Below, piece by piece: positions 1 through 31,713 of a stretch of 64,000 nucleotides of DNA. Positions within the stretch are counted from its first letter, which is position 1. The number at the start of each line of letters is the position of its first letter. Position numbers and translations under genes: made by a program. Source of the stretch: Diphasiastrum complanatum (Eukaryota; Streptophyta; Lycopodiopsida; Lycopodiales; Lycopodiaceae); NCBI GenBank assembly GCA_029204225.1, contig CM055108.1, positions 47,474,815 to 47,538,814 on the forward strand. The letters run 5' to 3'. Under the pieces are notes generated by a model that was not told where the DNA came from, did no database searches, and saw nothing but the letters and a program-made list of their open reading frames with translations.

Positions 1-625
1 GTGACATATCATCAATAAAGGTCATGAAATAGAAGGCTTTTCCTAAGGACATGGTCCTCATGGGCCCGCATAAATTTGTGTGGATTAAATCTAGGATGTT
101 CTTTGCTCTTGCAACACCCCCTTTATTGAACTTCTCTCGATGCTGCTTCCCATATATACAAGATTCGCACATCGATTTCAAGTGATCTTCTATGGTAGGC
201 AGTCTTGTTACCATCTCCAATTTTCTCATCAAACTGAGGCTTCCCAAGTTCAAGTGACCAAGCCTCTTGTGCCACAACTCAGTTTGCGAAGGAACGGATG
301 ATACAAGTCCATGTTGCCCCTTGATTGTAGCATTCAACCTGTACAATTTTGTATTGGACTCTCTTACTCCATTCACAATAACTTTGAACTTTTGGTTCGC
401 ATCCTTCACAAAGCAAGGATCATGGGCGAATTCTACTTTCAACTTTTGATCAGTAATGACTCCAACAGAAAGTAGATTTTTCTTCAAACCTGGTACGTAA
501 AGTACCTCCCTGATCATACTGCTTTTGCCATCAAGCAGTTGGATTGAAATTGTGCCTATCCCCTTGATCATGCACACCTCACCATTTGCTTGTGAAACAG
601 ATGTTCCATTATCCAACACCTTCAA
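1..625 (-). pseudogene. Ty1/copia pol fragment (protease end, GAG-pre-integrase, integrase), copy 1
   Basis: This is the duplicate of 4686-5310. Reading leftward it contains the protease-proximal segment, the GAG-pre-integrase zinc motif (LWHKRLGHLN, then CESCIYGKQ) and the start of the integrase core, which runs off the window at position 1. The copy is identical to the second one here. See the entry at 4468-5310 for the catalytic-site defects. Confidence 0.9.
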
Positions 626-634
626 ACTACTGAA

Positions 635-1149
635 CTAATTCTTGTTACCTGTCATGTGTCTTGTGGCTCTTGAGTCAATATACTGTGCTTGATCATCTTG
701 ATTAGATGACAATGCAGATATGAAGACGCTAGAGTCTTCAATCTCACCCTTATCGACAAGGTTACCTGCTTGTTTTGGTTTCCCCTTGCCTTGTTCCGCC
801 AGGAATTTGCGACATTCACTCTTCCAATGGCCCTTTTTACCACAATGGAAGCACTCGTCTTTCTTCTTAGTTTTGCTAGAAGATCCCTCATCCTCCTGAG
901 ACTTGGCAAATTGCTGCTTAGACTTCTTCTTGCCCTTGCCCTTGCCTTGTTTTTGGCGTGTCGCAAGTGCCTGATCGTCAGTATTTTGACGTCTAGCTTT
1001 TACCATTTCTCGTCGTTGCTCTTCCTGCATCAAGATTCCTATGAGCTCGTCAAAGGTTGGAAATCTTTCTCTTGATGCTATTCCACTCACAAACATCTAA
1101 TAGGATTCTGCAATGCCGCATAATGCATTATGCACCAGCTCCACATCAC
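635..1149 (-). pseudogene. Ty1/copia gag C-terminal half and protease start, copy 1 (inverted)
   Basis: The minus frame encodes the second half of a copia Gag. It has the segment FDELIGILMQEEQRRE, a basic lysine-rich stretch, one zinc knuckle (CFHCGKKGHWKSEC) and the protease active-site region, where the usual Asp-Ser-Gly reads Asp-Ser-Arg (DSRATRHMT). A TAG at 1097-1099 interrupts the frame just upstream of the Met at 1096. The coding frame continues rightward to about 1149 (DVELVHNALCG) and stops there abruptly. The matching Gag N-terminus lies on the other strand at 2959-3405. Confidence 0.9.
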
Positions 1150-1308
1150 GTTTTTCAAAAAATTGGCTATCTAAGTTTGTGATTCCTGTAGGTATTACAT
1201 TAGTAGACGTAGAACCAAACTTGGTTTTATCTGACCCTAGATCAATGATCAATAAACGTGCAGGAAGAATCATAAAATAGAAAAATATTCATTCACCAAG
1301 GAGACAAC

Positions 1309-1639
1309 TGTGGGCTTAATTTCCAATAGAAGCTTTGAAAAGGTAAATTGACCATGAATGCCAACATTGACCCAGTTAGAATTAAAGTTAGAATCACTGT
1401 GTTACGATACTGTGGGTCCTATCAGTGGATAAGGATCGGTTGGCCTCGCCACGAGGCAAGTCGACGGGACACGCATCCCGCCAACGGCAACCTGGATCAT
1501 GCATGGGTTGCCTGAGTGAACAACTATATGTATAGTGTAATTTCATTTTGAGAAATACAGTTGCTATGTGAGCTTGCTGAGGAGAGTGATTTTCTGTCTG
1601 TGTTACTATGTAGCATGATCTGTGTTCCTGTGCAAAGCA
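1309..1639 (+). repeat. copia 5' LTR, copy 1
   Basis: A 331-bp candidate LTR starts TGTGGGCTTAATT, just after a purine stretch (AAGGAGA), and ends AAGCA, about 10 bp before the primer-binding site. A TATA-like element (CTATATGTAT) lies at 1523-1532. The exact ends are inferred from TG…CA and from the position of the PBS. It is identical to 5994-6324, but both belong to the duplicated unit, so that identity dates the duplication and not the insertion. Confidence 0.7.
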
Positions 1640-1649
1640 AATTCTAAGT

Positions 1650-1661
1650 TGGTATCAGAGC
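1650..1661 (+). other. primer-binding site (initiator tRNA-Met), copy 1
   Basis: TGGTATCAGAGC is the standard plant copia minus-strand primer site complementary to the 3' end of initiator tRNA-Met. It fixes the plus orientation of this LTR and leader relative to the inverted pol on the minus strand. Confidence 0.92.
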
Positions 1662-2958
1662 CATACAGGGAGTGTACACAGTAAAGTGTCGCCGTTGAAG
1701 AGAGCTTCGGGAGAACTGTCGTCTGAGAGTTCGGGGTTTTACGGCGGGGTGAAGACGGAAAGAGAAGCACTGGTGCACGGTTTTTAATTTATAGAGGCTT
1801 GCTAAGCTTAGCAGAGGGATAATTAGCCTGTGCATAGCTTCAGACAGGGAAAAATTTGGTGAAAAATTGACAATTTTGAAGCCAGCTGAAAATTGAAACC
1901 GGACTTGGGGTTACGATTTTTATACATAACTGGTGATTTCTTCGTTGTTTGTGCACCGTTTTGGATGCCGTAAGGACAGAAAGGAAGCTAATCACACTGT
2001 CAATCAGCCATGGAGAGATTCTGAGGTTTATGTCAGAGATTTGTCTCCAGACAGTTAACCTAGCATATTTGCGGTAAAAAGGTGAAAAAGCCACTTTGTC
2101 AAGTTGAGCTAAAATCACCGTTTCTCCACGGAATTTCCTGACTGAACACTCTACAGTCATGGATTCAGTAGGGCGACCCTGCTCCAGGCCTTAGATCGTG
2201 CTCAAAACGATACATGAGAGCTTAATCTGATAGTTTTCAGAGAAGGGAGGCACGGTAGCAGGCAGGGAGGTCGCGGGCTGTTCACGCACCCAACGCGATG
2301 AACAACTTAGTGTTTTGAAGACCATAGCGTATGTAGGAGTTTGGTTTGATGCCCAGATGCACTTTGAACCTTTAAATAAGGTGTCAAATGAATCAACGGT
2401 CCAGAATCTGTGATGGGAGAGAAATTTGAACCACAAGATTTGGTTCAGCCATTGGATGAGCTTTGAACAAGGCCCTGAAGAATTGAAGTGCATTATAGCC
2501 TTCAACTTCATTCAAAATTTTCATACTGAAAGTTGAGCTGGGTCCCTTCACAAGTGGAGAGTGATGTTTCTTCAAAGTGAAGAAACAGTTCAAAAGCTAG
2601 AAAGTCCCTATTTTTGGGTCCTTTGCCCGTTTTGACCCAAACGAAAGGCTATAACCTCCAAACGAAGGGCACTCGGACTGTACCTGCAAGTACGGTACAG
2701 CAAAACAGAGTGGCTGCAGTGGAGAAAGTGTTCGGAGTATGCCAGAAGTAGTTTCACCATTCCACTGGGCACGTTGTTGGGAGTTGATGACTGAGTGCAT
2801 TTCGGAAGGCGACGCCGATTTGGCTTTCAAATTGGTGGAAAAGCAGCGAGTGGCCTGGTAAGAAAAAAAGTGCAGGTCATTACTTTCAACTTCTAACATC
2901 ACTGTTGGCCTCGACATACTGTTCTTAGCCTAAGGCAGAAGTTTTAGGCAGTTTTGCG
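1662..2958 (+). other. copia untranslated leader, copy 1
   Basis: About 1.3 kb lies between the PBS and the gag ATG. I see no convincing coding sequence; the open frames here are scattered and short. All 11 differences between the two duplication copies fall in this leader (2066, 2256, 2280, 2285, 2295, 2334, 2565, 2625, 2678, 2732, 2845). Confidence 0.75.
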
Positions 2959-3405
2959 ATGGCAAACATGGGAGAGTCCATTTTGAGTGAAAGTAGCAAA
3001 TTGGACGGGATTTCCAACTATGCAGTGTGGAAATTCAAAATGAAAAACATACTGATGGAGAAAGATGTGTGGGAAGTCGTCACAGGTGATGAGAGAAGGC
3101 CGCCAAATGAAGCAGACATCAAAGTGTTCGACAAAAAGATGAGGAAAGCTTTGACCTTCATTAACTTGTCAGTGAAGGATCACATCATTACCCACATTTG
3201 TGATGCTATTACACCCAGACAGGCATGGGATGTGCTAAAGGAGCAGTTCGAGACGTCAAATCCGTCAAGAATCATGTTTCTGAAGTCAAAGTTGAATAGT
3301 GCCCGCATGGAACAAAGAGAGCACATTCAGACATACATGACCAGAATCAAGACAATGAGAGATGAACTGCATTCTATTGGAGAGCGCATCTCCAGCAAAG
3401 GGTAA
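2959..3405 (+). pseudogene. Ty1/copia gag N-terminal half, copy 1
   Basis: A 148-codon frame starts at ATGGCAAACATGGGAGAG. It encodes the UBN2-type N-terminal part of copia Gag: NYAVWKFKMKNIL, a central AWDVLKEQFE, then MTRIKTMRDELHSIGE. It ends after ISSKG with a TAA supplied by non-element DNA. A normal Gag would continue directly into the zinc-knuckle half, which is found inverted at 635-1149. The frame is open in both copies and identical between them. Confidence 0.9.
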
Positions 3406-3861
3406 CCAATTCTATCATAATTTCAAGTTCAGATGTTAAGTTTAATAAATCGAAGTCATTGAAGACTTGGCCATCTTCAAGGACTTCCGCAAACTTGCAT
3501 TTAGAACAAGTTTGCAGATTTACATTACTTTTTCAACAGTTTGCAGAAATACACTAAGTGTTGCATAGTTCACATTTTTTGCACTTTTCCAAAAACTACG
3601 ACACTTGCCTTCGACTTCTTGCGTTCAATTATTTTTGAAGAAGTCAACTTTTTCGCAGTTCAAAAGTTTAACTATTTTCAACATCTTCGGCTTTTTTGCG
3701 TTTTCACGCAAAATGTGAGAGAGAAAAGAAGGTCCTCTATTTTCAAGGATTGAACTGTTAAAGGCACCTTCGCCTTATTTTTAAGGGCACCTTCAGCTTT
3801 TTCACATTTTTTTGGATATGTTGTCGATAGTACTCGGCGCCAAAGAAGATCATAATCTCTC
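3406..3861. other. non-element locus DNA carried in the duplicated unit, copy 1
   Basis: This AT-rich sequence has repeated TTCAAGGACTT/GACTTCTTGCG-like wording and no recognisable domain. The same stretch in copy 2 (8091-8546) continues without a break into 8547-9075. It is therefore original flank of the element and not part of it. Confidence 0.6.
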
Positions 3862-4501: not shown

Positions 4502-5310
4502 AATTGTCTTTTAATCCCACATTGATCACAAAGATCATTGAAGTCATTAGACTTATACTCACCTCCACTATGTGATCTTAGGACTTTGATCTTCTTACCT
4601 GTCTGATTTTTGACCAAGTTTTTGAAGTTCTTGAAGTTATCAAAAGCATCTGATTTCTTCTTCAAGAAATAGATCCACGTCTTACGTGACATATCATCAA
4701 TAAAGGTCATGAAATAGAAGGCTTTTCCTAAGGACATGGTCCTCATGGGCCCGCATAAATTTGTGTGGATTAAATCTAGGATGTTCTTTGCTCTTGCAAC
4801 ACCCCCTTTATTGAACTTCTCTCGATGCTGCTTCCCATATATACAAGATTCGCACATCGATTTCAAGTGATCTTCTATGGTAGGCAGTCTTGTTACCATC
4901 TCCAATTTTCTCATCAAACTGAGGCTTCCCAAGTTCAAGTGACCAAGCCTCTTGTGCCACAACTCAGTTTGCGAAGGAACGGATGATACAAGTCCATGTT
5001 GCCCCTTGATTGTAGCATTCAACCTGTACAATTTTGTATTGGACTCTCTTACTCCATTCACAATAACTTTGAACTTTTGGTTCGCATCCTTCACAAAGCA
5101 AGGATCATGGGCGAATTCTACTTTCAACTTTTGATCAGTAATGACTCCAACAGAAAGTAGATTTTTCTTCAAACCTGGTACGTAAAGTACCTCCCTGATC
5201 ATACTGCTTTTGCCATCAAGCAGTTGGATTGAAATTGTGCCTATCCCCTTGATCATGCACACCTCACCATTTGCTTGTGAAACAGATGTTCCATTATCCA
5301 ACACCTTCAA
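4468..5310 (-). pseudogene. Ty1/copia protease end, GAG-pre-integrase and integrase N-terminal half, copy 2
   Basis: This 280-codon frame holds the protease-proximal IREVLYVPGLKKNLLSVG, the GAG-pre-integrase zinc motif (LWHKRLGHLN … CESCIYGKQ) and the start of the integrase core. Two catalytic positions are altered. The first Asp is Asn (HTNLCGPM for the usual HTDLCGPM), and the second Asp is His (LRSHSGGEY for LRSDxGGEY). The enzyme could not have been active. The frame joins gag upstream through one TAG (5314-5319 region) and is frameshifted into 3860-4501. Confidence 0.92.
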
Positions 5311-5319
5311 ACTACTGAA

Positions 5320-5834
5320 CTAATTCTTGTTACCTGTCATGTGTCTTGTGGCTCTTGAGTCAATATACTGTGCTTGATCATCTTGATTAGATGACAATGC
5401 AGATATGAAGACGCTAGAGTCTTCAATCTCACCCTTATCGACAAGGTTACCTGCTTGTTTTGGTTTCCCCTTGCCTTGTTCCGCCAGGAATTTGCGACAT
5501 TCACTCTTCCAATGGCCCTTTTTACCACAATGGAAGCACTCGTCTTTCTTCTTAGTTTTGCTAGAAGATCCCTCATCCTCCTGAGACTTGGCAAATTGCT
5601 GCTTAGACTTCTTCTTGCCCTTGCCCTTGCCTTGTTTTTGGCGTGTCGCAAGTGCCTGATCGTCAGTATTTTGACGTCTAGCTTTTACCATTTCTCGTCG
5701 TTGCTCTTCCTGCATCAAGATTCCTATGAGCTCGTCAAAGGTTGGAAATCTTTCTCTTGATGCTATTCCACTCACAAACATCTAATAGGATTCTGCAATG
5801 CCGCATAATGCATTATGCACCAGCTCCACATCAC
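5320..5834 (-). pseudogene. Ty1/copia gag C-terminal half and protease start, copy 2 (inverted)
   Basis: This is an exact duplicate of 635-1149. It has a Lys-rich stretch, the zinc knuckle CFHCGKKGHWKSEC and the protease motif with DSR in place of DSG. A TAG at 5782-5784 falls where Gln would fit. Gag coding ends at about 5834, where the inversion breakpoint is placed. Confidence 0.9.
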
Positions 5835-5993
5835 GTTTTTCAAAAAATTGGCTATCTAAGTTTGTGATTCCTGTAGGTATTACATTAGTAGACGTAGAAC
5901 CAAACTTGGTTTTATCTGACCCTAGATCAATGATCAATAAACGTGCAGGAAGAATCATAAAATAGAAAAATATTCATTCACCAAGGAGACAAC

Positions 5994-6324
5994 TGTGGGC
6001 TTAATTTCCAATAGAAGCTTTGAAAAGGTAAATTGACCATGAATGCCAACATTGACCCAGTTAGAATTAAAGTTAGAATCACTGTGTTACGATACTGTGG
6101 GTCCTATCAGTGGATAAGGATCGGTTGGCCTCGCCACGAGGCAAGTCGACGGGACACGCATCCCGCCAACGGCAACCTGGATCATGCATGGGTTGCCTGA
6201 GTGAACAACTATATGTATAGTGTAATTTCATTTTGAGAAATACAGTTGCTATGTGAGCTTGCTGAGGAGAGTGATTTTCTGTCTGTGTTACTATGTAGCA
6301 TGATCTGTGTTCCTGTGCAAAGCA
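5994..6324 (+). repeat. copia 5' LTR, copy 2
   Basis: Identical to 1309-1639. The TATA-like element is at 6208-6217. No 3' LTR of this element is visible in the window; its reverse transcriptase end would lie to the left of position 1. Confidence 0.7.
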
Positions 6325-6334
6325 AATTCTAAGT

Positions 6335-6346
6335 TGGTATCAGAGC
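6335..6346 (+). other. primer-binding site (initiator tRNA-Met), copy 2
   Basis: TGGTATCAGAGC, a duplicate of 1650-1661. Confidence 0.92.
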
Positions 6347-7643
6347 CATACAGGGAGTGTACACAGTAAAGTGTCGCCGTTGAAGAGAGCTTCGGGAGAA
6401 CTGTCGTCTGAGAGTTCGGGGTTTTACGGCGGGGTGAAGACGGAAAGAGAAGCACTGGTGCACGGTTTTTAATTTATAGAGGCTTGCTAAGCTTAGCAGA
6501 GGGATAATTAGCCTGTGCATAGCTTCAGACAGGGAAAAATTTGGTGAAAAATTGACAATTTTGAAGCCAGCTGAAAATTGAAACCGGACTTGGGGTTACG
6601 ATTTTTATACATAACTGGTGATTTCTTCGTTGTTTGTGCACCGTTTTGGATGCCGTAAGGACAGAAAGGAAGCTAATCACACTGTCAATCAGCCATGGAG
6701 AGATTCTGAGGTTTATGTCAGAGATTTGTCTCCAGACAGTTAACCTAGCAGATTTGCGGTAAAAAGGTGAAAAAGCCACTTTGTCAAGTTGAGCTAAAAT
6801 CACCGTTTCTCCACGGAATTTCCTGACTGAACACTCTACAGTCATGGATTCAGTAGGGCGACCCTGCTCCAGGCCTTAGATCGTGCTCAAAACGATACAT
6901 GAGAGCTTAATCTGATAGTTTTCAGAGAAGGGAGGCACGGCAGCAGGCAGGGAGGTCGCGGGCTATTCATGCACCCAACACGATGAACAACTTAGTGTTT
7001 TGAAGACCATAGCGTATGCAGGAGTTTGGTTTGATGCCCAGATGCACTTTGAACCTTTAAATAAGGTGTCAAATGAATCAACGGTCCAGAATCTGTGATG
7101 GGAGAGAAATTTGAACCACAAGATTTGGTTCAGCCATTGGATGAGCTTTGAACAAGGCCCTGAAGAATTGAAGTGCATTATAGCCTTCAACTTCATTCAA
7201 AATTTTCATACTGAAAGTTGAGCTGGGTCCCTTCACAAGTGGAGAGTGAAGTTTCTTCAAAGTGAAGAAACAGTTCAAAAGCTAGAAAGTCCCTATTTTT
7301 GGGTCCTTTTCCCGTTTTGACCCAAACGAAAGGCTATAACCTCCAAACGAAGGGCACTCGGAATGTACCTGCAAGTACGGTACAGCAAAACAGAGTGGCT
7401 GCAGTGGAGAAAGTGTCCGGAGTATGCCAGAAGTAGTTTCACCATTCCACTGGGCACGTTGTTGGGAGTTGATGACTGAGTGCATTTCGGAAGGCGACGC
7501 CGATTTGGCTTTCAAATTGGTGGAAAAGCGGCGAGTGGCCTGGTAAGAAAAAAAGTGCAGGTCATTACTTTCAACTTCTAACATCACTGTTGGCCTCGAC
7601 ATACTGTTCTTAGCCTAAGGCAGAAGTTTTAGGCAGTTTTGCG
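6347..7643 (+). other. copia untranslated leader, copy 2
   Basis: This is the counterpart of 1662-2958. It holds every substitution that I could find between the two duplication copies, in a 780-bp stretch (6751-7530). Confidence 0.75.
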
Positions 7644-8090
7644 ATGGCAAACATGGGAGAGTCCATTTTGAGTGAAAGTAGCAAATTGGACGGGATTTCC
7701 AACTATGCAGTGTGGAAATTCAAAATGAAAAACATACTGATGGAGAAAGATGTGTGGGAAGTCGTCACAGGTGATGAGAGAAGGCCGCCAAATGAAGCAG
7801 ACATCAAAGTGTTCGACAAAAAGATGAGGAAAGCTTTGACCTTCATTAACTTGTCAGTGAAGGATCACATCATTACCCACATTTGTGATGCTATTACACC
7901 CAGACAGGCATGGGATGTGCTAAAGGAGCAGTTCGAGACGTCAAATCCGTCAAGAATCATGTTTCTGAAGTCAAAGTTGAATAGTGCCCGCATGGAACAA
8001 AGAGAGCACATTCAGACATACATGACCAGAATCAAGACAATGAGAGATGAACTGCATTCTATTGGAGAGCGCATCTCCAGCAAAGGGTAA
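7644..8090 (+). pseudogene. Ty1/copia gag N-terminal half, copy 2
   Basis: Identical 148-codon frame to 2959-3405 (UBN2-type Gag). It ends after ISSKG where locus DNA begins. Confidence 0.9.
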
Positions 8091-9075
8091 CCAATTCTAT
8101 CATAATTTCAAGTTCAGATGTTAAGTTTAATAAATCGAAGTCATTGAAGACTTGGCCATCTTCAAGGACTTCCGCAAACTTGCATTTAGAACAAGTTTGC
8201 AGATTTACATTACTTTTTCAACAGTTTGCAGAAATACACTAAGTGTTGCATAGTTCACATTTTTTGCACTTTTCCAAAAACTACGACACTTGCCTTCGAC
8301 TTCTTGCGTTCAATTATTTTTGAAGAAGTCAACTTTTTCGCAGTTCAAAAGTTTAACTATTTTCAACATCTTCGGCTTTTTTGCGTTTTCACGCAAAATG
8401 TGAGAGAGAAAAGAAGGTCCTCTATTTTCAAGGATTGAACTGTTAAAGGCACCTTCGCCTTATTTTTAAGGGCACCTTCAGCTTTTTCACATTTTTTTGG
8501 ATATGTTGTCGATAGTACTCGGCGCCAAAGAAGATCATAATCTCTCCATCGTGTTGCATGAAAAAAAAAGACTTTATTTGTGTTTTCCAATGTCCAACGC
8601 CAATATTCACATTCAGACCATCCATTCGAACAACAACATGTTGTCCTCGGTCATAAACATCACCATCAAAAAATATCTTTTTCGAAGCGGTAACCTATTC
8701 AAAGAGGCCATCTCATTCACTTACGTTCCAAAAATGTTTGGCATATTTCAATTCCTCTTTTGAAGTCGGACGAAACTGTTTTCTTTTCTTGGTGATAGCA
8801 ATCCCCTTGGTTTTAAGCAACTCTTTGCATGGTGTTTCACAATTATTTGCAATGCATTGCTTCCATAGATTCCTTGCTTGTGACACTGATGACACCTCTA
8901 AGATACACTGTGTATGCATAGGAAACATGTTGAAGCTTCCTCACCATGGGGTGCATAACCATCAAGAAAAACAAGACAATTATGGAGATAATTATGCATC
9001 CTATGCTTTGGCATAAGACCATCCACATCTTGCTGACAATTCTGGAAAACCTTTGCAAACAACTTTCCTGCAAAA
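8091..9075 (-). pseudogene. unrecognised decayed minus-strand coding region
   Basis: Minus-strand frames here read like protein, broken by stops and frameshifts. From the right they are LMPKHRMHNYLHN at about 9000, then ELLKTKGIAITKKRK near 8800, then FFDGDVYDRGQHVVVRMDG and IGVGHWKTQIKSFFF near 8600. They run across the duplication edge at 8546. I do not recognise a family. The wording (an 'H-W-K-x-QI' strip near the C-terminus) would suit a transposon-encoded protein, but that is a guess. Confidence 0.3.
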
Positions 9076-9239
9076 AAATGGGAATAAGTTATCTCAAAGC
9101 ATGGTGGTAGCTCGTGGATCTACTAGTATCATTGTACTCCTCATTTTGGATCTAATTGATTTGGTGATTGTGTGGATTTTGAGTGTCATTGAGTTTCTAG
9201 CTTTCTCTCTCTACCTGAGGAGAGCAGCTTGTTTTTACT

Positions 9240-9435
9240 TAGAATAATTTTTGAATACTTCCCACACGTGTGAGTGAGAGTTGGATGTGATTGAATGCAT
9301 GTAGTAGTGTGTTTTTGCCATAGGATCAAAGATAGATCTTGAATCTCAATCTAGTCTTGATCTTGGTGCATCTACACACCTTAGGAGATCACAAGTACAT
9401 GTTGTGGACAATCCACACGTGTGAAATCAACACAA
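9240..9435 (+). repeat. LTR fragment related to the copia LTR at 49150-49924
   Basis: The stretch ATCTTGAATCTCAATCTAG … GACAATCCACACGTGTGAA resembles the reverse complement of 49140-49310 (…CTAGATCTTGATACTGAATC … GTTCCCCACACGTGTGAAC). I see no PBS or coding region attached, so it reads as a solo or truncated LTR. No alignment was run. Confidence 0.4.
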
Positions 9436-9444
9436 ATTTGGAGT

Positions 9445-9588
9445 ACTATTGGGGTTAAGCAGGGATGCTCTCTCTCACCAGTTCTCTTTGGATTGTATAT
9501 TGACGAACTAGAGCAGGTCATCTCTCAGTGTAGTGGGGACGGTTGTCGGCTTGGAGACATTCCGATTGTCATCTAGCTTAATGTCTTG
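9445..9588 (+). pseudogene. non-LTR (LINE-type) reverse transcriptase fragment
   Basis: The plus frame reads GVKQGCSLSPVLFGLYIDEL followed by EQVISQ. This is the conserved GxxQG-PLSPxLF…Y-I-D-E-L block of LINE reverse transcriptases, just before the YADD motif. It then meets TAG. Only about 45 residues survive, and the flanks on both sides are unrelated. Confidence 0.75.
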
Positions 9589-9639
9589 GACTCAAGATCC
9601 CTCTACTTTCGTCATTTAATAGAAATTTTGGGTGATCAT

Positions 9640-10060
9640 GTCCAAAATCAAGTTGTCTTGCACCAGACAATCATAGCTCAATTTTCTTGCTTTCTTCCAC
9701 TTCCTTGTCTCACCAAATTCCTCATCTTGATCAATCGTATGACCATCCATATGATTATGCTGAGCATGTTCCCAAGTGGATTAAGGTTTTTCATGCTTTG
9801 AATCAAGTATTGGGATGAATTAAATTGTTCCTTCCTTCTCATGTTCCACCACATGTGGTGTGTGATCATCATCAAAGATCACATCCCGAATAATGATCCT
9901 ATTCATGCTTGTAAGATCATATAGTCTATAAGCTTTCTATTCCTCATTGTATCCTAAGAAGATACACTTTCTTGAGTTTTCATCTAAATTTTGACTATCA
10001 TCCTTGGGAACATGTACATAGGTTGTACAACCAAACACATAGCTTGCTCTAGCTCTCTTC
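9640..10060 (-). pseudogene. Ty1/copia integrase-to-RT linker fragment
   Basis: On the minus strand the frame runs VFGCTTYVHVPKDD, then KCIFLGYNEE (stop) KAYRLYD, then RDVIFDDDHTPHVVEHEKEG. This is the standard end of the copia integrase region, where FLGY…KGYR and SRDVIFDE motifs are found. One TAG sits where Gln fits. Both ends are truncated. Confidence 0.8.
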
Positions 10061-10179
10061 CAATTGTTGTTCACATGGATCATACTCTAGTTGCTCTAGC
10101 TTGCTCTAGCTTGCTTTGACTCTCCTCCAATTGATGTTCACATGGAGCCATACTCACTTTAGTCCCTTTGCCAAGGATC

Positions 10180-11170
10180 GAATCAAAATAGTTAAGCAAT
10201 TGGTATGGATGTATGTTGTACTATGAATGCTTGGGTGCCACAAGCTAGTCATCCCTGTGGTAACTTTTGTGCCACCTCTAGTTCAAATGGTTTGATTAGT
10301 CTTTCACCCCCATACCTGAGTCTATATTACTCAAATTTGATGCCTAACGTGTGATTTTGGTCATTTCTCAATGTTCAGAAAAAAGAGTAATGATACTTCT
10401 ACTTGGATTCCCAACATGTGATTTTAATCTTTATGGCTCCACATAATGGACGAGTGATCAAACTTGGTATATTAAGATTGCTTTTGTTTGATCCCTTGCA
10501 GATGATAGATAACTAAAAAATGATGTGTTCAAATCAACACAACTCAATTTTGACCATTATCATTAGAGATTGTTCCTAAAGAGATCAAAATAGTGCAATC
10601 TTGAGCTTACACATATGAGAAAGTACAAATTTGATGCCTTTCACTCAAGATAGCCGAGACTCGATGCCTAGCATGTGATTTCAGTCCTAATCACTCGACA
10701 TAGTTGATAGATTGTTCAAACTTAATCTGTCTCAAATTTAGAACAGTTAGGTTTTGAGTTTCATCTGGGCTCATTGATGTAATTGGGCCCTACACCCAAA
10801 ATGACTCAAATTTCATGTTTATCACTCGAGATAGCTCAAACTTGATGTCTACCACTTGAGATAGCTCTGTTGTGATGTCTGTGACTTGAGATAGCTCAAT
10901 TTTGGATAAATATTGAATTCTTGAACATTTAAAGGCATTTAGCTAACTCAAAGTTCATGATTATGATTCAAAATAGCTCAAAATTGATGCCTAAGATGTG
11001 ATTTTGGTAATTATGGCTCAATAAATCAAATTGGAGGCCCAATATGTGATTTTGGTCTTTATGGCTCCACGCATTGCGTGATCAAACTTGATCAATCCCA
11101 ATGTAGTGGCCCATCTCTACTCTCCAAATTTTTGAGCTCCCAATTGAGTGGCTGAATGCAAATGAGTAAA
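10180..11170. repeat. degenerate short-motif repeat region, left
   Basis: Variants of 'ACTCAAATTTGATGCCTAACATGTGATTTTGGTC' (quoted here as ACTCAAATTTGATG and CATGTGATTTTGGTC) and of CACTTGAGATAGCTCAAA recur about every 60-150 bp. The same wording returns in direct orientation at 20700-21240. I see no coding potential in it. Confidence 0.6.
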
Positions 11171-11259
11171 CTTGAACCTTGGCCTATTCCCTTTCAATCC
11201 AAGAGACTCATCAACTCACCTAGAGAGAGATATGGTCAATTATATGGAGAGCAATAGAG

Positions 11260-11300
11260 CATTAGAGGAGTTCTTAATATCAAAAAGACCCTTTGTAAAG
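11260..11300 (+). repeat. left arm of a ~40-bp inverted repeat bounding the 9.3-kb gene block
   Basis: The arm reads CATTAGAGGAG, then AATATCAAAAAGACCCTTT. It matches the reverse complement of 20588-20627 with only a few differences. It lies just outside gene A, at the inner edge of the degenerate repeat. I could not define a clean target-site duplication. Confidence 0.5.
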
Positions 11301-11724
11301 ATACTTTTATTTTTTTCTTTAGTTTCGACCATCACCAGGCCCAATCAAAATGCACAGATTTGAAATCTACGTAACGTAGTTCAAATTAACTAAAAAATAA
11401 AAATGCAATATAGAAAACTTTGAAATTTGTGTCCGGGCAGCATGGACGTATCCCATTGGTTTCTTTTTCCTGCCCGACACGTGCTAATTTGCCTGATGTC
11501 AATATCTCAAGTTAAATTTATTTTACTATGCTGGTTAGTGTAATGAAATTTTCTAACTATACTAGTTACAATTATAGAAATATAGTATGTACAGTTACAT
11601 AAAATATGGTATACGCAGTAACTGTGACTATGTTGGCATTCACATTAGATTAAATGTGATACGAAAAATTAAAATCAAGTAACATATCAGAGAGATTTTT
11701 GGCGCCCAAGCTTTGAAAATAGCA
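11301..11724. other. left subterminal non-coding DNA
   Basis: AT-rich with no coding frame. It contains GCCCGACACGTGCTAA at about 11475-11490, a CACGTG palindrome like those in the spacer at 14995-15824. No other structure seen. Confidence 0.4.
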
Positions 11725-13096
11725 ATGGCGAGGACACCCAGATCTACAATCGATTCTGTGATTCTTTACAATGAGAAAGATGAAGCTGATAACTGGAAGC
11801 CAACAAAATATACGAAGAACTCATGGCTATTGCTGCATCCATCATCAAAGGGCAATTTTTGACAAAAGAAAAGAGCAAAAATGACTTACAAATCTTATTG
11901 GAAAGCAAAAATTTTGGAGTTTAAGACTACCCCGGGAGGTCAATCAATATCAGAAGTCTTAGTGCAACATGTATATATGCATTCAAGAATCAAAGTACAT
12001 GATATCAATCCTCATGATCATAAAAAATGTAATTGTAAGTATATCAAAACATATGCACTCTACAGCAATCATAGGTGATTTCCTTTATTGATGCTCTTTA
12101 GATTATGATTTAAATGCTTCAACATTGTTTTTTTATTTCAGATTTATATCCATCATGCATAAGTGAATGGGAGCCGCACAATCACTTGCAGGAATATTAG
12201 ATGTGATTCACTCTGATGTTGGAAAGCTACAATACAAAGAAAGAAGTTCAAAGGAACTTGCAGATTGTGGTATCTGTTTTTATGAATCTTTATATACGCC
12301 ACAAACAGATGAAGGTTTTGGCAAGCTCGAAGCAATTCCATTGTCTAGTTTTCAAAGTGATGAGTGGCCTACTCCTGACAGCATTGTTTCTAAATCCTTG
12401 AGATGCAAGCTACTCATTGATATTAAAAATGCTATGAAGATAAGCACAGGCTCGAAAATTGTTCGCCTAAGTTGGTTTATCTCATTGCATACATTTGCTG
12501 ATTTTTTCTTGAGTGCTAGTGTTCGTAGGACACCAACTTTATTTGTTTGCAAGGATTTATCATATGAGACTTTGTCAGATCTCATGGATCAAGGCTGGGA
12601 TAGTAAAACAAATAATGACATAGAATGCATGATTAAAAAGTCCTCAATGATCTTTCATTATCATATCAAAAAGCAAATGCTCAGTCTCACATCTAGCTAC
12701 CAAAGATACAAGAAAATTGAAGGTACATGGCTACCACTGGATCAAGACTTTGAACTAAATGGTCACACAAACCCAATGGAGATAAGTATTATCTACAATG
12801 CGGAATATTTGACTATGGTTGAGGTGGAAGAGCACTGGAAGCTTGATTTTATCAGAACAGAGCTCATGCTATTACAAACCAATCTACCAACATATTTCAG
12901 ATTTATCATCAACGGAAGACTCGTAAGTACTTTATGTTTATTGCCATTTCAAAATAGAACAAAATAATAGAAAATGTCATCATTTACAATCGCACATTCA
13001 GTAATATTTGCCATGTCACAGATGCGAAAAAGACAGGAGTTGATAACGTGCTGCAAAGATCTACCTACAACAATCACCATTGTGGGAGAACAATAG
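11725..13096 (+). pseudogene. gene A: spliced gene of unknown function in the 9.3-kb block
   Basis: Proposed exon 1 is 11725-12034, starting MARTPRSTIDSVILYNE. It has one in-frame TGA near codon 46 and ends at a strong donor (GTAAGTAT). Exon 2 is 12142-12922, preceded by TTTTTTTATTTCAG; its open frame from 12167 has 252 codons. The donor after NGRL is GTAAGTAC. Exon 3 is 13022-13096, in phase, and ends at TAG. Exon 1 and exon 2 do not share frame as drawn, so there is a frameshift or an unseen splice. No domain is recognised. Its 3' end converges on gene B 196 bp away. Confidence 0.55.
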
Positions 13097-13292
13097 TTTT
13101 AAATAAACTTTAGTAAAAATCTATGCATACACCCTTTCATTCAATAAATGAAAGCCCAAGTTGGGCATCTATACATGTATTTTGTGCTCCCAAATTCATA
13201 AACTGGAGCAGCATTTGATATATCAATGTATATTTTTCTATGAAGTCTATACATGTATTTTTGTTTTATGCTTATCTATATTTTTTCTGATC

Positions 13293-14994
13293 TTAATTTA
13301 GTACAACTACATCCTTTGCACCATCATCAATAACGGGAGGCTGAAGCCTTGCCCGAGCCAGTATACTCAAGATAATTTCTTGTCTAAAAGTGTAAACTGC
13401 AAAATAGAACATTCATGTATTAGTAATGGCCAATAACATCACTAGAATAGAAAACTAATCATGATTCCAAAATAAGAATAAACAGAATTTATTACCTTAG
13501 AAATATCACCATTTTGTTGAAGGATGAACCACTCAAAAAACAGCTTGGCATTGTACAATGTGTATCACCCACAACTGAATGAATTATTTTGCTGGGGTGA
13601 CTGCAAAATAATTCAGCACACAAGAAATTAATTATGAAACAGAATGAATTAGATTGAGAATTTTTCATTAGAATACTGATTTCAAAATGCTATTAAGAAA
13701 GAAGAGTTTACCTCCAAGCTGACGATCTGCCAGTCTACGGAATGAGAAACGTCTGTAGGAATATATTTACTTAGATATGGAATGAATATATCTACATCCT
13801 TATGCATATTTCTCGCCGAATTCATCTTGACACGAGAGCATTTAATAATATTATTTATAGATATCTTAATAGAGATCAAGTTTAAACTCCAGTGGTCATT
13901 GCAAAATAAGATTAAAAGTACTTTAGCGGCAATTCTGAGAACTATTTAAATTGAAAATGTCAATGTTAATGCATAAAATAGGAAGAAGCACTTAATATAT
14001 CTTACTTGGTATGATAAGGAATGACCAGATACTTTGTTGCTGGTGTGAATCCACTTGTCAGGCACTATGACAATGTGTCATTATTCTCCTTGAAGGCCTG
14101 GAGCATAAAGTTACTCAGCACCAACAACTCATTTGATGAATCTCTTGCAATGTCAAATTGCAAGAGTGTCAACCCGGACTCTATCACAAGATCACTGATA
14201 GAAGCTCGTCTGTCTTTGAGATCCAGACAATCTAGAACTCTAAAATTAATACTAAAATCAAGTTCTTCTAGTCTAAAACAAAAAGGAGTACCAATTGTAT
14301 CTATAGCATCCGATATGTCTTTCTCAAATTTAAGATAATCATCTGAATCTATATATGTATAGAAATTGGGAGGAGGAGGAGGAGGAGGAGGTGGAAGTGT
14401 AGTATCTACAGCAATATTAGGAGTATCCAATACAGAGGTAGCTATATTTACAACATTATCAACAACAACATTATCTACAATGGATTCTGGGATAGGCTTC
14501 ACTTTCTTGGGAGCATGCTTGGGGGTTGTCTGCTTTCTAGGACGCTTCGTAGGAAGATGAGTCCTATCTACAAGAGTTGGTCTACGAGCAGCAAGCTGGG
14601 ATACATGTAACCTACAGTACCTATCCCTCATTCTGATCATAAGGTGAAAATCCTTTGGCATTATGGTAACCCTCTTGGTATAGATGGCAAGCAAAAAAGA
14701 ATCCTAAAAAAAAAGGTTAATATAGTCTTTAGCAGTCTCCTGAAGGCACTGAAGAGCACTCGGTGTGAATCTAACGTGCTGTCTGAGATCATTTTTTGTT
14801 ATGTTCCGGATAGCACGGTAGAATGGAGCTCTTGGGATCAACAGAGCTGTTGACCTCTGATACTTGCGTATCTCAGAGAGCCACCTGCTGCGGTTGTGCA
14901 TTCTAGGTCTAGCAGGGGGTGTGATGGCAACCGCAGGAGATGAGGATGAGCCAAGAGAGAAGAAGTCTCTCCTTGTCTGCTTTCTCCTATCCAT
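13293..14994 (-). pseudogene. gene B: histone H3/CENH3-like fold joined to an Ulp1 (C48)-like domain
   Basis: Proposed exons are 14994-14006, 13934-13712, 13600-13496 and 13396 to about 13293, about 470 codons. Junctions 1-3 keep frame with GT-AG introns; the frame of the last exon is uncertain. Residues 41-125 are a histone H3 fold: EIRKYQRST, LLIPRAPF, then KRVTIMPKDF. LLIP, a lengthened loop 1, DS before αC-type LLAI and KDF recall CENH3. Then come a basic Pro/Lys linker, Pro9 (about 201-209) and an Ulp1-like region: YLVIPYH, CNDHW (His about 344) and PQQNNSFSCG (Gln 407-408, Cys 414). The Asp normally near +17 from His reads Lys. In-frame stops: TAG 14704-14706, TAG 14065-14067, TGA 13565-13567. 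The histone assignment is firm, the protease likely, and the fusion as one protein is inferred from splicing. Confidence 0.72.
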
Positions 14995-15824
14995 GGGCGT
15001 GAACTATGTGATAGCGGACTTATGCATGAAGGTTAGGATGAGAAGGAAGGGATGATAAAGGACTCGCAGAGGACCGCTATGTATGGACAGAATGTACGGT
15101 ATATCAGACCTATGCAAGCCGATTATCAGAGAGAATGATTAGATTTGAGGAAAGACGCACAAGTGCGATATGGGATGACACGTAGGAAGACGTATCGGAC
15201 CTGTGCGCATGGAAGGTAGTAGGAAGAATTTTGATCGTGAAGGGCACACACAAATGTGATATACGGAGCGAAAAAAAAAGTGAAAAAGATTCATTGAAAT
15301 TTGTGATTTTATATCGGGGTTCGCACGTGCGAAAGAACGTCCTATCAATGTGTGAGAGTTGTACAGACAAATGCGAGAGCAACACGTGTCACTCTGTCAC
15401 ACTACACGTGTGGGATTTGTACGATCGAATGCGAGCGCGACACATGTTTATAAGCACTCGAATAAACACACGACACGTGCTAGGTGTCATTTCACACGTG
15501 TGCAGGTGTCATCTCACACATGCCTATGCCTGTTGTCGAATTGAAAGTAGACACATGTCATAAGTCCGTTGACCACATGTGCAAAAATTTAGTATAAATG
15601 GCATGGAAACCAAATAATTTTTTACCTTTTGCGTTCTCAAAATTCATGACATATCGCTTTCGTGCACGCTCATTTCTGTCCGTTTGCTTGCAAGTATACC
15701 TACTCGCGCACAAGTGCGATATTCTGTATTTGTCTACCGTACATATCCATCTTCTGCGTCATTTTGATTGTTAGTTTTGGTTCAGTTCTCCCGTGCACAC
15801 AAGTGCGATATTCACGCTACTGCC
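14995..15824. promoter_or_regulatory. divergent spacer between genes B and C, rich in CACGTG/CACATG palindromes
   Basis: This 830-bp spacer separates two divergently read genes. It carries many E-box/G-box-like palindromes: GCACAAGTGCGATAT-type words near 15160, 15705 and 15795, a variant at 15248, TCGCACGTGCGAAA near 15320, and ACACGTGT/ACACATGT words near 15390, 15410, 15445, 15475, 15495, 15520, 15550 and 15575. The density suggests a shared control region or a protein-binding array. No TATA box is clear, apart from TATAAATGG near 15593 ahead of gene C. Confidence 0.5.
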
Positions 15825-17344
15825 ATGGTTTCTTCCTCATCATCCTCACGAGAATCATGCTTGAGTTCATTTCTGAGTGAATTTGGGATTACTGAAAATC
15901 TGGACTACTTCCACAGCCTATTCAGGCCATATCTACATGTTTTCAGGACTGCACAACCAAATTCTGACGTATTTTATGAACATTATGTCAGATTCAGAGA
16001 TATACTTAGCAAGCTTGTTTTCTCCATAGGTCAACTCCAGTACATGCATTATACTGATCTTGTTCATTTCTTCCCAACTTTTAGACATAGACCGGATAGA
16101 ATGTTCACCAAATTGTTTGATCTTTTCAAAAGTAGTACTATGTGTCCGTATTGCAACAAGAAATGTCGATTGGTTGAATATCAGAGTGGTTTCGTATTTT
16201 TTTTGTTAGTTCAGATCCCAGATGATGATGAGTTTCATGTTGTTGACCCTCCTTTTGCACCCTCGTCTATTCAGTCAGCCATTAAGGATATCAGTCACTT
16301 TCGTATTGACACTCCTGATAAAGAAAGTGACTTCATTGATTTAAATACTGATGTTCTCCGGGATTCTTTCATTGGCCAAAATACATCTGATGATGAATCC
16401 AAATCTATGGAGGACTCGGAATGTCTTTTCAATTTGCTTGTATATTATATTAATGACGATGTATATTTTACTACTGCTGATTTATGTAAATTTTTTGACT
16501 ATCGTGAGGACGAGGTTCTATGCTTATTATCCGGCACAATTTTCAAATTCTCCGACTTTGTAGATTTTGAGACAGATGACGACCTTGTTGCTGGTATTGA
16601 TTTTGATGATGAGGAGGGTCTTATGACCGGTGAAGAATGTCTGAATAAGACTTTATCAAATATAGCTGAGGATGGGCAAGGCAGACCATCCGATGAAGAA
16701 TTCATGACATTTCAATCCCAGATGGGCTTCCCTTGTCCATCATTAATGCATTTCACTGATGATTCCACTTCAGTACGTGGTCATTATATTGATCATCCTG
16801 ATCTGGTTGCTGCTGATGATGAAGAATGTGTAACTGTTTAATCTTCCTTGCATTTGAATATTTTCAATCAGTAAATGTGTTTTTGCTAACATATTTCCTA
16901 TTGCAGGATGCTCTCATAATAGATGATTTTGCTACGAGATGAGGTGGTTTCAGACAACACGCATCCTCATTCCAGGGGGACAATGGACTGGGCCACTATC
17001 TTTGGCATTTCTTGAAGAGTGAGATTTGTATTGCTCATTCCAAGCTGAGCCCAGTCAGGGAGAGTCTTATAATGGCAATTAAAGCTTTATCATCCTATTT
17101 AGGAGGACATAAATCTGTTAAGACAAATAAGATCATTTTTGTCAAAAGATCTTATGTTTTGAACATTTTAGGCTTTACTGATGGGAATGTTCCTTTAAGG
17201 AGCTCCCATTATTCATTGTATTCCACTTATATTGAGCTTAGTGGAAATAAGGATAATGCACATCTATTAGATGCATACGCTAGCAGAGAATTTCTTCATG
17301 ACAATACTACCATAGAATCCGATACAAGATCTGATGATGAATAG
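15825..17344 (+). pseudogene. gene C: acidic spliced protein of unknown function in the 9.3-kb block
   Basis: The likely start is ATG 15825 (MVSSSSSSRESC), 19 codons inside the longer open frame. The frame is open to 16841, with a CPYCNKKC zinc-ribbon-like motif about 105 residues in and an acidic second half. A likely intron lies between GAATGT|GTAACTG at about 16831 and ATTGCAG at 16907. Splicing it continues the frame into DALIIDDFATR, one TGA, then a 130-codon stretch ending at 17344 (TRSDDE). The TGA may be Arg CGA decayed. I recognise no family. Its 3' end converges on gene D. Confidence 0.55.
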
Positions 17345-17456
17345 TTGACACTTTGTATAATACAATTAATACATTTACATTGGGTATTGCTCCTCTCTTG
17401 TTCAATGAATTTGCAAAGCAATTCTGAACATGTCATGATGATCTTCTACTCAGCAA

Positions 17457-19971
17457 TCATCTAATTTTCTCTTCATGTATGAACTTGCATGCTTTTCTAA
17501 ACTTGTTGTATTGTGTGGACTTTGTTATATGTCGAATCTTAACTTTGCGGTAGAACCACTGAAACAATTGACAAATGTAGTTTCGTTTTTCATTGGTTCC
17601 TCCATGTTGTGTATTTCGATGAAATGCTGCTCGTGCTTGCCAGTGTGACTTCTCCATCCCTTGTGATGACCATACACTCAAGCCTCCATATGTATTTGCA
17701 AAAACTGTTGTATGATCTCTTAGTATGTGCTGCATATGTCAAAATCATAATGTTAGTCTTATGTTTAGATCTAAATATATATGAAAATTTGAAAGCATTT
17801 TGAAAATTTTATACTAACCATGTAATGAGATGTGATCTTCTCCCCATGCTTTTGATATTGCATTAACAAACTCGACACAAGTCCTTTGGACAACTTTCTT
17901 ATCAATATCAGAGTATTTTTCTTTTCTTAAAATAACAATCATACTATCAAGCTTTTTCCATACATCAACTTTTAGTACTCTGGTTTTGCCGTCTTTCTCG
18001 AAGTCCTGAGTGGCAGCAATAATATCTGTCCAGACTGAGTGTTGAATATTAGAAGCCTTACCAGTATTGATAGAAAACGATGTGCTTTTGCTCCTCCTAT
18101 GCTTGGCTTAGTTGGCATGTTCCCATTCTTTCCTGAAAGCTTTTTCATCTTTTTGAATTTTGACATGTCCTTTATGGAGTCCTGCTTTTGATAAGATATC
18201 TTCTAATTGAGAGATAGCTTCCTTTTCTAATGATGCTGGCTTAGTATTCCCAGCAAAAACTATATGAAGATAAATGATCTTTTCTATTAATCTAACTTCT
18301 GCATGAAGAGTGCAAACATGCACATTTTTTAAGGGGATAGGTAGCACATGCTTCCAATTTGGATCTGCATATTCTTGAGTAATTCATGTACTCTTAGTTA
18401 CATCTTTTGCCATTTTCATGTAGTACAAACAACGGTGTTTTGATGTAGCACCGTGAGAGACATTATACATACATTTCAATGTTTTCAAATCACCTGCTAA
18501 GTGCCATTCAACATTGAAGTCTCCAACTCCTGGAACATTGAGAAGTCCGCCATCCATATGGTCCTTGATGATCCTAGGATAAGATGTCCTTGAGAATATC
18601 CATGATAATATATCATGATCCTCTTTTAGCACTCTTCCAAAAAAATTAATCAGACTTAATTTACAATGTATTAATACTATTCAACGAATGTAATGTAATA
18701 ATGAGGCTAGTTACCTGAAACGCTGCCAACCACCATATATCATTTTCTGACTGGACACTGAATCTGAAATCTTCTTGGTTCTCTGTTTGTGATAGAGCAC
18801 CATTCATGAGAGTTATACTAACCCTCTCCATCTTCTGTCCTTTCACAATTTCTGACTCATCTAACTTAAGTACTATGATTATTTTGCCAATCACCTTTTC
18901 ATAGGTTATATCATAGAATGTGACGATGTATCTCAGCAAGTAATTTAGATCAACAAATAAATTGTTTGATGAATTATAGAATATCGATCTTCCATCAGTT
19001 TCATACACCTCCTCAATATGAAATGGAGTTCTAGTGATCTTACGCATACCTATGTTTAATGTATCCCTCTCTTTCTTCGAGTGGTATGTCCTAGGGATTG
19101 GGACTTTTCTAATTTGAACTTGCTTAAAAGCTTCTCTAATTAGTTTAAATATTGTTGCATATGCTTCACTACTAATACCTGCAAAATCACAAGCACCTTG
19201 AACTATAGTCTTATCTAAAATATTTTGAATGTCCACCATCAAAGACTCTGCTATTTTACACTTTACATTTGAAATCTTATTGTTCATCATGATACGCTCA
19301 GTGTATTTGCAAGTCAATATTGTGCCCAATGACATTCCTAGTGAAGCATTGTCTTTAATATTCTGAGGAGTACTAATGCAGATCTGCAAATAAAACAGAT
19401 AGTTAACAAAAAATCACCATAGCTGAAATTAAATCCAAATGTCATTGAAAAACTTACAAAATATAGAATATGCTTACTTGAATACACAGATCCTTCTATT
19501 TCGATAACCTCCTTTTGAAAGCGCTTGAATATCCTTGCAACTTTGTCGCTTTCGCTTCTTACTTTCAGCCTTCTTCTATACCAAATCCACATCCTTTAGT
19601 AATTGTAAGTTTTCAATACGAATAGATTGTAAGACTGATTGCATTTGCTCTAGTTCTGATTTGATATTGACTGCTATCTTCTATAATAATTCATTATTTT
19701 TTTTAAGTTGTTCATTTTCTTCTAACGTCTTTTGGAGATGACAATCTCTATTCTGACAATAAGAGGATATCCGAATTAACTCACCTTCTAAAAAGTGAAC
19801 TTTATTCATATAAAGTTGTTTTCCATGGTTTTGCAATCTTTCACAATATCCTAGTAATCCACTATGCCCATTGCATATCCATGTAACTAAATGAGTTACT
19901 GAAGAGAATGTGGGATGTGTCAAAGTGCTTGGATCTTGTGGATATAATGTTCCATCTGTCCACAAATCCAC
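17457..19971 (-). pseudogene. gene D: multi-exon transposase-like gene in the 9.3-kb block
   Basis: Approximate exons: 19971-19478 (Cys-rich start, coiled coil, KKAESKKRKR basic patch), 19383-18715, about 18632-17822 and 17735-17457, about 750 codons in all. Donors GTAAGC (19477) and GTAACT (18714) and acceptor TTTGCAG (19384) are clear; the others are not. Distinctive segments in order are KIIIVLKLDESEIVKGQKM, FNVEWHLAGDLKTLK … GATSKHRCLYY, VCTLHAEVRLIEKI and VWSSQGMEKSHWQARAAFHR. This layout (Asp strand, 'W-x-L-x-x-DLK', His-rich helix, 'S-Q-G-x-E') looks like an uncharacterised transposon-encoded protein, but I cannot name the superfamily. In-frame stops: TAG 19681-19683, TAG 19576-19578, TGA about 18380, TAA about 18106. 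Confidence 0.55.
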
Positions 19972-20587
19972 GTTTTTCTTTCCTTATGCCCTGTAACGAG
20001 AACGATCTTCAGCAAAATATTTGAACTCCTTTGCCTCCTCTTCTCAGCAAAGGTGCCAAATCAACAGGGATATCCACATGTAGATGATATAATGTCATCA
20101 TCAAAAAAATAATAGAGTAATCAGTTGCATCAAAGTACTATGACCAGATTCTATGAAGCAAAACAAAATACTCATCTTTGATTATATTATATACTATGTA
20201 CAATCAATCCAATCTCCATTGCTTGTATGCTTGATTCAAATTTGGAAATTCCGCTCATTTTTTCATTCCAATAGGTAGTTGGCGCTCATATTTCCATTCT
20301 CGTGGAAGGAATGCATATGTAAACATTTTGCAATTTTTCCTAATTCGAATTTGGGGATGGCAGTCATATTCTAGATCCAGTGAAAATATTGCCCTTTTCG
20401 TACCAATGGAGGGAATATTTTTGAATTTAGTCAAGTTATACTGCAAACTATTAACAGTTCTTAACTATGACTATAGACACTGTGGTTAGATCATTGGGAG
20501 TTGGGGAGGCCTTGGGAGTGGTGTGGGCAAGCAAATAAACAATATTGTTTTATTTATTTTGATATTTTTGTATATCCTACATGGCAT
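19972..20587. other. right subterminal non-coding DNA of the 9.3-kb block
   Basis: AT-rich and no supported gene. It would hold the promoter of gene D. No clear TATA box or repeat array like that at 14995-15824 was seen. Confidence 0.35.
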
Positions 20588-20627
20588 TCCTTAAAGGGTC
20601 TTTTTGATATTGAGATCTCCTCTAATG
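20588..20627 (-). repeat. right arm of the ~40-bp inverted repeat
   Basis: AAAGGGTCTTTTTGATATT … CTCCTCTAATG is the reverse complement of the arm at 11260-11300, with a few mismatches. The arms are 9.3 kb apart and enclose genes A to D. Confidence 0.5.
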
Positions 20628-31628: not shown

Positions 31629-31657
31629 CCACACACACACACACACACACACACACC
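31629..31657. repeat. (AC)n microsatellite in the lipase promoter
   Basis: AC repeat about 130 bp upstream of the lipase ATG. Copy 2 (about 56975-57001) has a slightly shorter tract. Confidence 0.9.
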
Positions 31658-31713
31658 CCAAACCAAAAAATAGTATCTTTTAAGGACAAAATTTAAGGGT
31701 GGGATCCTATACC

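Follow-up and report, generated by a model that had tools for sequence, protein, structure and literature searches.

A histone H3-like fold fused to a C48/Ulp1-like domain in a high-copy DNA transposon of Diphasiastrum complanatum

The transposon and its genes

The window analysed here (the whole stretch of 64,000 nucleotides from the Diphasiastrum complanatum genome) contains a complete DNA transposon of 9368 bp at positions 11260..20627, referred to below as family 1, the limits of which were set by copy ends, by both terminal inverted repeats (TIRs) and by the empty sites of other copies. The left TIR (11260..11294, plus strand; 35 bp, beginning CATTAGAGGAG) is present in the window and in other copies, and the right TIR (20593..20627, minus strand) is its inverted copy. 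In full, the 35-bp inverted repeat reads CATTAGAGGAGTTCTCAATATCAAAAAGACCCTTT and is found inverted again at 20627; the termini of family 1 are CATTAG..CTAATG. In alignments, the left end coincides with base 11260 in copies L017, L018, L024, L026, L027 and L028, and lies 8 bases outside it in L014. A search for the 35-mer with up to three mismatches gave at least 2378 matches in the genome (1154 + 1224) and none for a reversed control. Between the TIRs lie gene A (plus strand), the H3-C48 gene that is the subject of this report (minus), gene B (plus) and gene T (minus). The mobile-element setting suggested in the first-pass annotation was thus borne out, and the locus holds a gene of a high-copy TIR DNA transposon in a decayed copy.

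Insertion of this element leaves no target-site duplication (TSD). No flank of fixed length was held in common among eight copies examined with both ends (the window copy, L017, L026, L028 and the L040, L042, L044 and L046 pairs), the short matches being AGAG (window copy) and TCA (L042). The pairs L048/L049 (flanks inverted) and L050/L051 (105 kb apart) were set aside from this comparison. When the flanks of L028 were joined (400 bases), 39 of the 40 places listed matched over all 400 bases and one over bases 1-393; many of these empty-site places span 401 genome bases, and the four that were aligned are gap-free throughout. Similarly, 28 of the 40 listed matches to the joined L044/L045 flanks cover query bases 8-190 in exactly 183 genome bases, and some others are of different length as judged from their match coordinates. 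The gap-free empty sites thus indicate that insertion adds the element only, with a 0-bp TSD.

Gene A (11725..13096, plus strand) probably has three exons. In copy L028, its Pfam matches are all below threshold, one to a TnsA-like N-terminus (E 0.0067) and one to a BAH domain at near full length (E 0.049); a BAH-like chromatin reader in gene A would suit the element. By eye, the C-terminus of gene A looked ubiquitin-like, but neither Pfam nor PDB bore this out and the idea was discarded. Gene B (15825..17344, plus strand) has two or more exons, is acidic and contains a CPYC motif. Gene T (17457..20040, minus strand, upstream limit approximate) is transposase-like and is broken in the window copy. 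Its candidate catalytic residues are two Asp, in KLDE and AGDLK, and a Glu in QGMEKSH; in sequence alignment, the Asp blocks are identical between family 1 and a second family described below, where the Glu block also recurs.

At first pass it had been noted that Ulp1-like genes are known passengers of plant MULE and CACTA elements. Pfam searches of the six read-through frames of 9001-18002 and of the T pieces matched no MULE, Vandal or CACTA transposase domain, and the T pieces matched no hAT transposase domain either. With no domain match and no TSD, including the 8-bp TSD of hAT elements, membership of MULE, CACTA or hAT was rejected. A viral source was also rejected, as no relative was found in viral contigs with the histone as query or with the T alignment.

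The H3-C48 gene and gene B have a common 5' region (15158..15811, plus strand), in which the 14-mer CACAAGTGCGATAT occurs four times, at 15158, 15249, 15709 and 15798. The whole window has five matches to this 14-mer, against a mean of 0.51 in shuffled sequences, none of 100 shuffles reaching five. Four other family-1 copies have 5-7 matches each, and the 12 loci of the second family have none. The repeat could, as a guess, be a recognition site.

Several further features of the window lie outside the transposon. Direct repeats of about 3.76 kb at 31337-35099 and 56686-60432, 98.1% identical and with starts 25 kb apart, have Copia-like remains between them. Their ends are AAAGG...TTTA and not TG..CA, on which ground plain LTRs were rejected; a giant LTR element is uncertain. 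The stretches 1-3861 and 4686-8546 are 99.7% identical and contain Copia-like gag and pol frames, and a SET-domain remnant lies at 29207-29428 on the plus strand (23.7 bits against a Pfam cut-off of 22.4).

Structure of the H3-C48 gene

The H3-C48 gene (14994-13293, minus strand) starts with an ATG at 14994 and has four exons, all on the minus strand. Exon A (14006..14994) encodes an H3-like tail, the histone fold (14626..14916, residues 27-123), a basic and poly-Pro linker and the first part of the C48 domain. Exon B (13712..13934) carries the C48 His block, which reads NDHW in the window copy and SDHW in open copies, exon C (13496..13600) carries the Gln/Cys block PQQNNSFSCG, and exon D (13293..13396) encodes the C-terminus. 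The three introns are all GT-AG and agree in phase, in keeping with the earlier claim that the frame is preserved across them.

The first-pass annotation had read the gene as a fusion of an H3/CENH3-like fold with an Ulp1-like protease domain, to be checked against the Pfam models PF00125 and PF02902. With in-frame stops read as X, the histone region of the window copy scores 91.4 bits with PF00125 (E 6.7e-26, cut-off 26.4), and the spliced C48 region scores 32.6 bits with PF02902 (E 9.4e-8, cut-off 20.7). Both domains are also significant in two intact copies, L017 (Histone 97.2 bits, 1.1e-27; C48 35.0 bits, 1.7e-8) and L028 (Histone 94.2 bits, 9.1e-27; C48 32.6 bits, 9.5e-8), and the fusion therefore stands. 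In PDB, phmmer matched H3 chains with E values from 3e-20 upward and yeast Ulp1 with an E value of 4e-4. The near-exact H3 blocks noted earlier were likewise recovered as EIRKYQ, in alpha-N, and KRVTIMPKD.

The window copy contains three in-frame stops, two in exon A (in the histone fold and in the first C48 part) and one in exon C beside the Cys, together with a 31-nt deletion in exon D. Other copies are open at these positions, exon A being open in L017, L028 and L056; the stops and the deletion thus make the window copy a pseudogene. An intron over the first stop was considered and rejected, since the H3 alignment is unbroken across the stop and the codon is a sense codon in other copies. 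The fusion of histone and C48 is independent of the introns, since a single open frame (14065-14703, 212 codons) runs from the last part of the histone fold through the linker into the beginning of the C48 domain. The C48 start alone is too diverged in the window copy for a Pfam score. In the product of the H3-C48 gene, a basic proline-rich linker joins an H3-derived histone to a C48/Ulp1-like domain of the cysteine peptidase type. As to identity and setting alone, that is, a transposon gene for an H3-derived histone fused to a C48/Ulp1-like domain, we regard the assignment as close to certain.

In L017 and L028, the C48 profile match covers only positions about 82-205 of 217. The active-site blocks DHW (His), PQQ (Gln) and CG (Cys) are present in L017, L028 and L056; the C48 region was aligned with yeast Ulp1. 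It had been remarked at first pass that the Asp of the triad appeared replaced, and indeed no Asp was found at the usual distance after the His, the nearest candidate being an Asn-Ser further on. Since this Asp is missing, activity is uncertain. The domain may be active via another residue, weakly active, or a binding module.

Copies in the genome and a second family

The genome searched comprises 1.7447 Gb in 5176 contigs, and all copy counts given here are lower bounds. Its retroelements and its H3, which has Tyr41, are plant-like. The Pfam histone model gave at least 153 matches, made up of 13 host H3 places (164-165 bits) and 140 weaker ones, in a search that scored 150 of 6325 first-look candidates. 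A 106-residue query from the C48 start in exon A matched at all 150 places scored among 3731 first-look candidates, and 17 of these have an open frame of at least 330 amino acids with a stop-free match. Some of the 17 resemble duplicated contigs, and in L018, one of them, a stop interrupts the histone close to its beginning; the figure is thus no count of intact genes. The joint histone-C48 open reading frame recurs in many copies within the D. complanatum genome.

Twenty stretches taken from the histone matches, mostly picked for long open frames, sort into two families, with eight loci in family 1, to which the window belongs, and 12 in family 2 (L009-L013, L015, L019-L023 and L025). Spliced with the introns of the window copy, the family-1 coding sequence is fully open in three of 12 copies, namely L017 and L028 (482 codons) and L056 (485 codons). 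These 12 include the window copy, L018 counted twice, and L056 and L057, which were selected for long frames; in L057 the C48 part is disrupted. Copy L018 has two histone exons, the second of which lies inside the C48 region.

Family 2 has termini beginning CATTAGGGCCC. Its H3 gene encodes the tail ARTKQTARD, an SR-rich and poly-Pro stretch and an H3 fold ending RRERN. The gene order in L025 is A, H3, B, T as in family 1, but with H3 and B turned round. None of the 12 family-2 loci matches the C48 domain, and the protease is thus not a universal part of the lineage. Gene A of family 1 matches 11 of the 12 loci at 27-34% identity (weighted mean 30), and the second part of gene B matches 10 (31-38%, mean 32), its first part matching none. 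Two T pieces match eight and nine of the 12 loci (means 33 and 38%, the Glu block up to 52%), several family-2 loci ending short of the T end. Between the families, the T core is 46% identical in the one pair compared and the H3 fold 43-53% (mean 48; nine family-1 by 12 family-2 copies). Judged from these alignments, conservation of the histone exceeds that of A and B and roughly equals that of the T core, so that the histone is not singled out.

Synonymous and non-synonymous changes in exon A were compared in seven of 10 aligned copies (21 pairs), with L014, L018b and L027 excluded because they were broken or short and L024 trimmed to its first 320 codons. Mean dN/dS was 0.19 for the fold, 0.35 for the tail, 0.39 for the first C48 part and 0.65 for the linker. 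For pairs from different subfamilies, the fold gave dS 0.53 and dN 0.04 in L017/L024 (binomial p for synonymous excess 1.4e-9, this and the following values being based on rounded counts) and dS 0.42 and dN 0.07 in L017/L026 (p 9.5e-6). Exons B-D, compared in three copies only, gave dS 0.25 and dN 0.07 in L017/L026 (p 1.3e-4). The synonymous excess in the first C48 part has p 0.011, and the linker shows no clear selection (p 0.2). The same-subfamily pair L017/L028 looks neutral in the fold (dS 0.03, dN 0.05, p 0.82), as is expected where copies decay after insertion. This pattern of substitution shows purifying selection on the histone fold and the C48 exons. Kept in two diverged families and under purifying selection, the histone is, on the evidence of these comparisons, an old gene of the transposon lineage.

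The histone tail and fold

After the initial Met, the host H3 tail reads ARTKQTARKS, that of family 1 DRRKQTRRDF and that of family 2 ARTKQTARDP. K4 is present in 12 of 12 copies of each family. Position 9 is D in 11 family-1 copies and G in one, and D in 10 family-2 copies and G in two; K9 is replaced by D or G, and is never Lys, in all 24 copies compared. Neither of the ARKS motifs is present in family 1. In L017 and L056, K4 is the sole lysine before the fold, and L028 has one more at position 2. With an Asp at the K9 position and no ARKS motifs, such a tail could not receive H3K9 methylation. Family 2 has an extra in-frame ATG four codons upstream (MSEEM), and translation from this first ATG may put MSEE before the H3-like tail and spoil its mimicry.

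The first-pass annotation had labelled the histone CENH3-like on account of its LLIP motif, a longer loop 1 and KDF. The motifs LLIP.APF and PKDF are indeed CENH3-like, and loop 1 is one residue longer than that of H3 in family 1, but it is not longer in family 2. In CENH3, loop 1 is longer than in H3 by about two residues, and it is two longer in the CENH3 sequences used for comparison. Across nine family-1 folds, identity to host H3 is 53-59% (mean 55.8), compared with 48-55% to Arabidopsis CENH3 (mean 50.9) and 50-56% to maize CENH3 (mean 53.1). The folds are thus slightly nearer to host H3, by a small margin; the CENH3 label is not supported, and a CENH3 origin was set aside as unlikely.

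Proposed function and alternatives

Histone H3 marks hold transposons down. Here, a histone gene is mobile, multicopy, fused and selected, and its tail is altered alike in two families. On this observed base, we propose that the H3-C48 protein is a self-made, anti-silencing nucleosome component for the element, a reading of identity and function together to which we give a probability of roughly 0.45. The protein would act in chromatin on behalf of the element, and its histone part would enter nucleosomes together with host H4. Its tail, with the K4-like site kept, Asp for K9 and no ARKS in family 1, would take no H3K9 methylation. Silencing-resistant chromatin might then form on or near the element, which would be kept active, and the fused Ulp1-like domain could act on silencing proteins close by, stripping them of SUMO or of a SUMO-like mark. 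Such anti-silencing would work like that of VANC and KIU in Vandal transposons, as a likeness without homology.

A broader reading, which we offer only tentatively, is that the two families represent a new plant DNA transposon superfamily with CATTAG..CTAATG termini, no TSD and its own transposase-like gene. A self-encoded H3 variant with the K4 activation site kept and the K9 silencing site lost would be a core gene of this superfamily, joined in one branch to a SUMO-protease-like domain, and would build silencing-proof nucleosomes.

Other explanations were weighed against the proposed anti-silencing role. The histone might serve as a transposition factor that, with the products of A, B and T, packages or bends the element or the target DNA during transposition, insertion without a TSD being the product. 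The retention of A, H3, B and T together in two families, the lack of a TSD at the insertions and the similar likeness of histone fold and T core between families would all suit such a factor. However, the tail change common to both families, with K4 kept and K9 turned to D, points to chromatin marks and not to packaging, and it is hard to see what the C48 domain would do in strand transfer; we consider this explanation unlikely. Somewhat less likely again is a decoy, a poison histone that occupies and blocks the host's chaperones or methyltransferases for H3 and is itself not deposited on the element. Very numerous element copies and an H3-like tail with an altered K9 on an intact-looking fold are what a decoy would call for, yet the whole conserved fold would be needless in a peptide decoy, and the C48 fusion would be left unexplained.

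A chance capture of a host H3 and a host Ulp1 fragment by transduplication would make the gene a mere passenger. Capture of H3 is known in a fungal hAT element (PMC6710886) and capture of Ulp1 in plant MULEs (PMC13317346), and nine of the 12 family-1 copies are broken. Against this stand the purifying selection on the fold and the C48 exons, the introns and open frames retained in scattered copies, and an H3 gene common to two families that have diverged to about 30% identity in their A proteins. A passenger therefore appears improbable, more so than a decoy.

It had further been suggested at first pass that the histone directs the element to centromeric chromatin. The 98 C48-bearing copies that lie on contigs of known length (15 contigs; the other 52 of the 150 places were not used) show an even distribution (KS p = 0.59), and both insertions for which empty sites were identified are in repeats. 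On C1, the one contig with a complete list of exact TIR matches, exact TIRs are concentrated at 65-66.7 Mb and at 95-100.6 Mb (80 sites; KS p 6e-7). A search with maize CENH3 did not find a host CENH3, its matches being 13 host H3 places (70-71%) and a further 137, unsorted, at 57% or less. Despite the CENH3-like LLIP.APF and PKDF, the small identity margin toward H3 and the TIR clusters on C1, targeting of centromeres by a CENH3-like histone is thus very improbable and was rejected, given the even spread of the C48-bearing copies, the two insertions in repeats, the somewhat closer likeness to host H3 and the lack of a host CENH3 in that search.

If the proposed anti-silencing role is true, an H3 of the lineage's own, altered at K9 in both families and in one branch joined to a deSUMOylase-like domain, would let the transposons bypass silencing directly. 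Whether selfish DNA can supply its own nucleosomes is thereby opened to test.

Comparison with known systems

To our knowledge, this would be the first histone that a mobile element carries as a gene under selection and not as a dead passenger. Searches of open-licence PMC full text found no report of a histone-C48 fusion, and none of a selected histone gene in a transposon. What is already known is H3 in a fungal hAT element and Ulp1 in plant MULEs; neither is known to have the histone-C48 combination.

In Pseudocercospora fijiensis and related fungi, a hAT transposon has captured histone H3 (Dhillon et al., 2019; PMC6710886). Like the present element, the fungal one is a DNA transposon, about 9.5 kb long, and its H3-like sequence is found in hundreds of copies (PMC6710886). 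It differs in that the sequence is a retrocopy of host H3, mostly of the third exon, with copies inactivated by RIP, in an element with a hAT domain and an 8-bp TSD (PMC6710886). In contrast, the H3 described here is strongly diverged, selected, intact in some copies and fused to C48, and its transposon has neither a hAT match nor a TSD.

The KIU and VANC genes of Vandal transposons, which are non-TIR MULEs, are similar in being accessory genes of plant transposons with a transduplicated Ulp1 domain (PMC13317346). VANC genes that carry Ulp1 direct the hypomethylation of the family to which they belong (PMC13317346). An anti-silencing role is reported for KIU and VANC (PMC13317346) and proposed here. 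The Vandal genes have a VANC part in place of a histone and are carried on MULEs without TIRs (PMC13317346), whereas the present element has 35-bp TIRs, a 0-bp TSD and no match to a MULE transposase.

Other transposons are known to carry their own genes for chromatin or DNA modification. The fungal TET/JBP DNA transposons and the oomycete SET elements share this trait (PMC12730594). Unlike the H3-C48 element, they encode mark-changing enzymes and no histone, and they belong to other transposase groups and have TSDs (PMC12730594). The Spy group of PHIS transposons resembles the present element as a TIR element that inserts without a TSD (PMC4482050). Spy prefers AAATTT as its target (PMC4482050); no such motif was seen at the family-1 junctions examined, and the T pieces gave no Pfam match to a PHIS DDE domain.

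Finally, CENH3/CENP-A proteins share with the transposon histone an H3-type fold, LLIP.APF and a diverged tail. The transposon histone differs from them in being slightly nearer to H3, in its fusion to a C48 domain and in being carried on a transposon.
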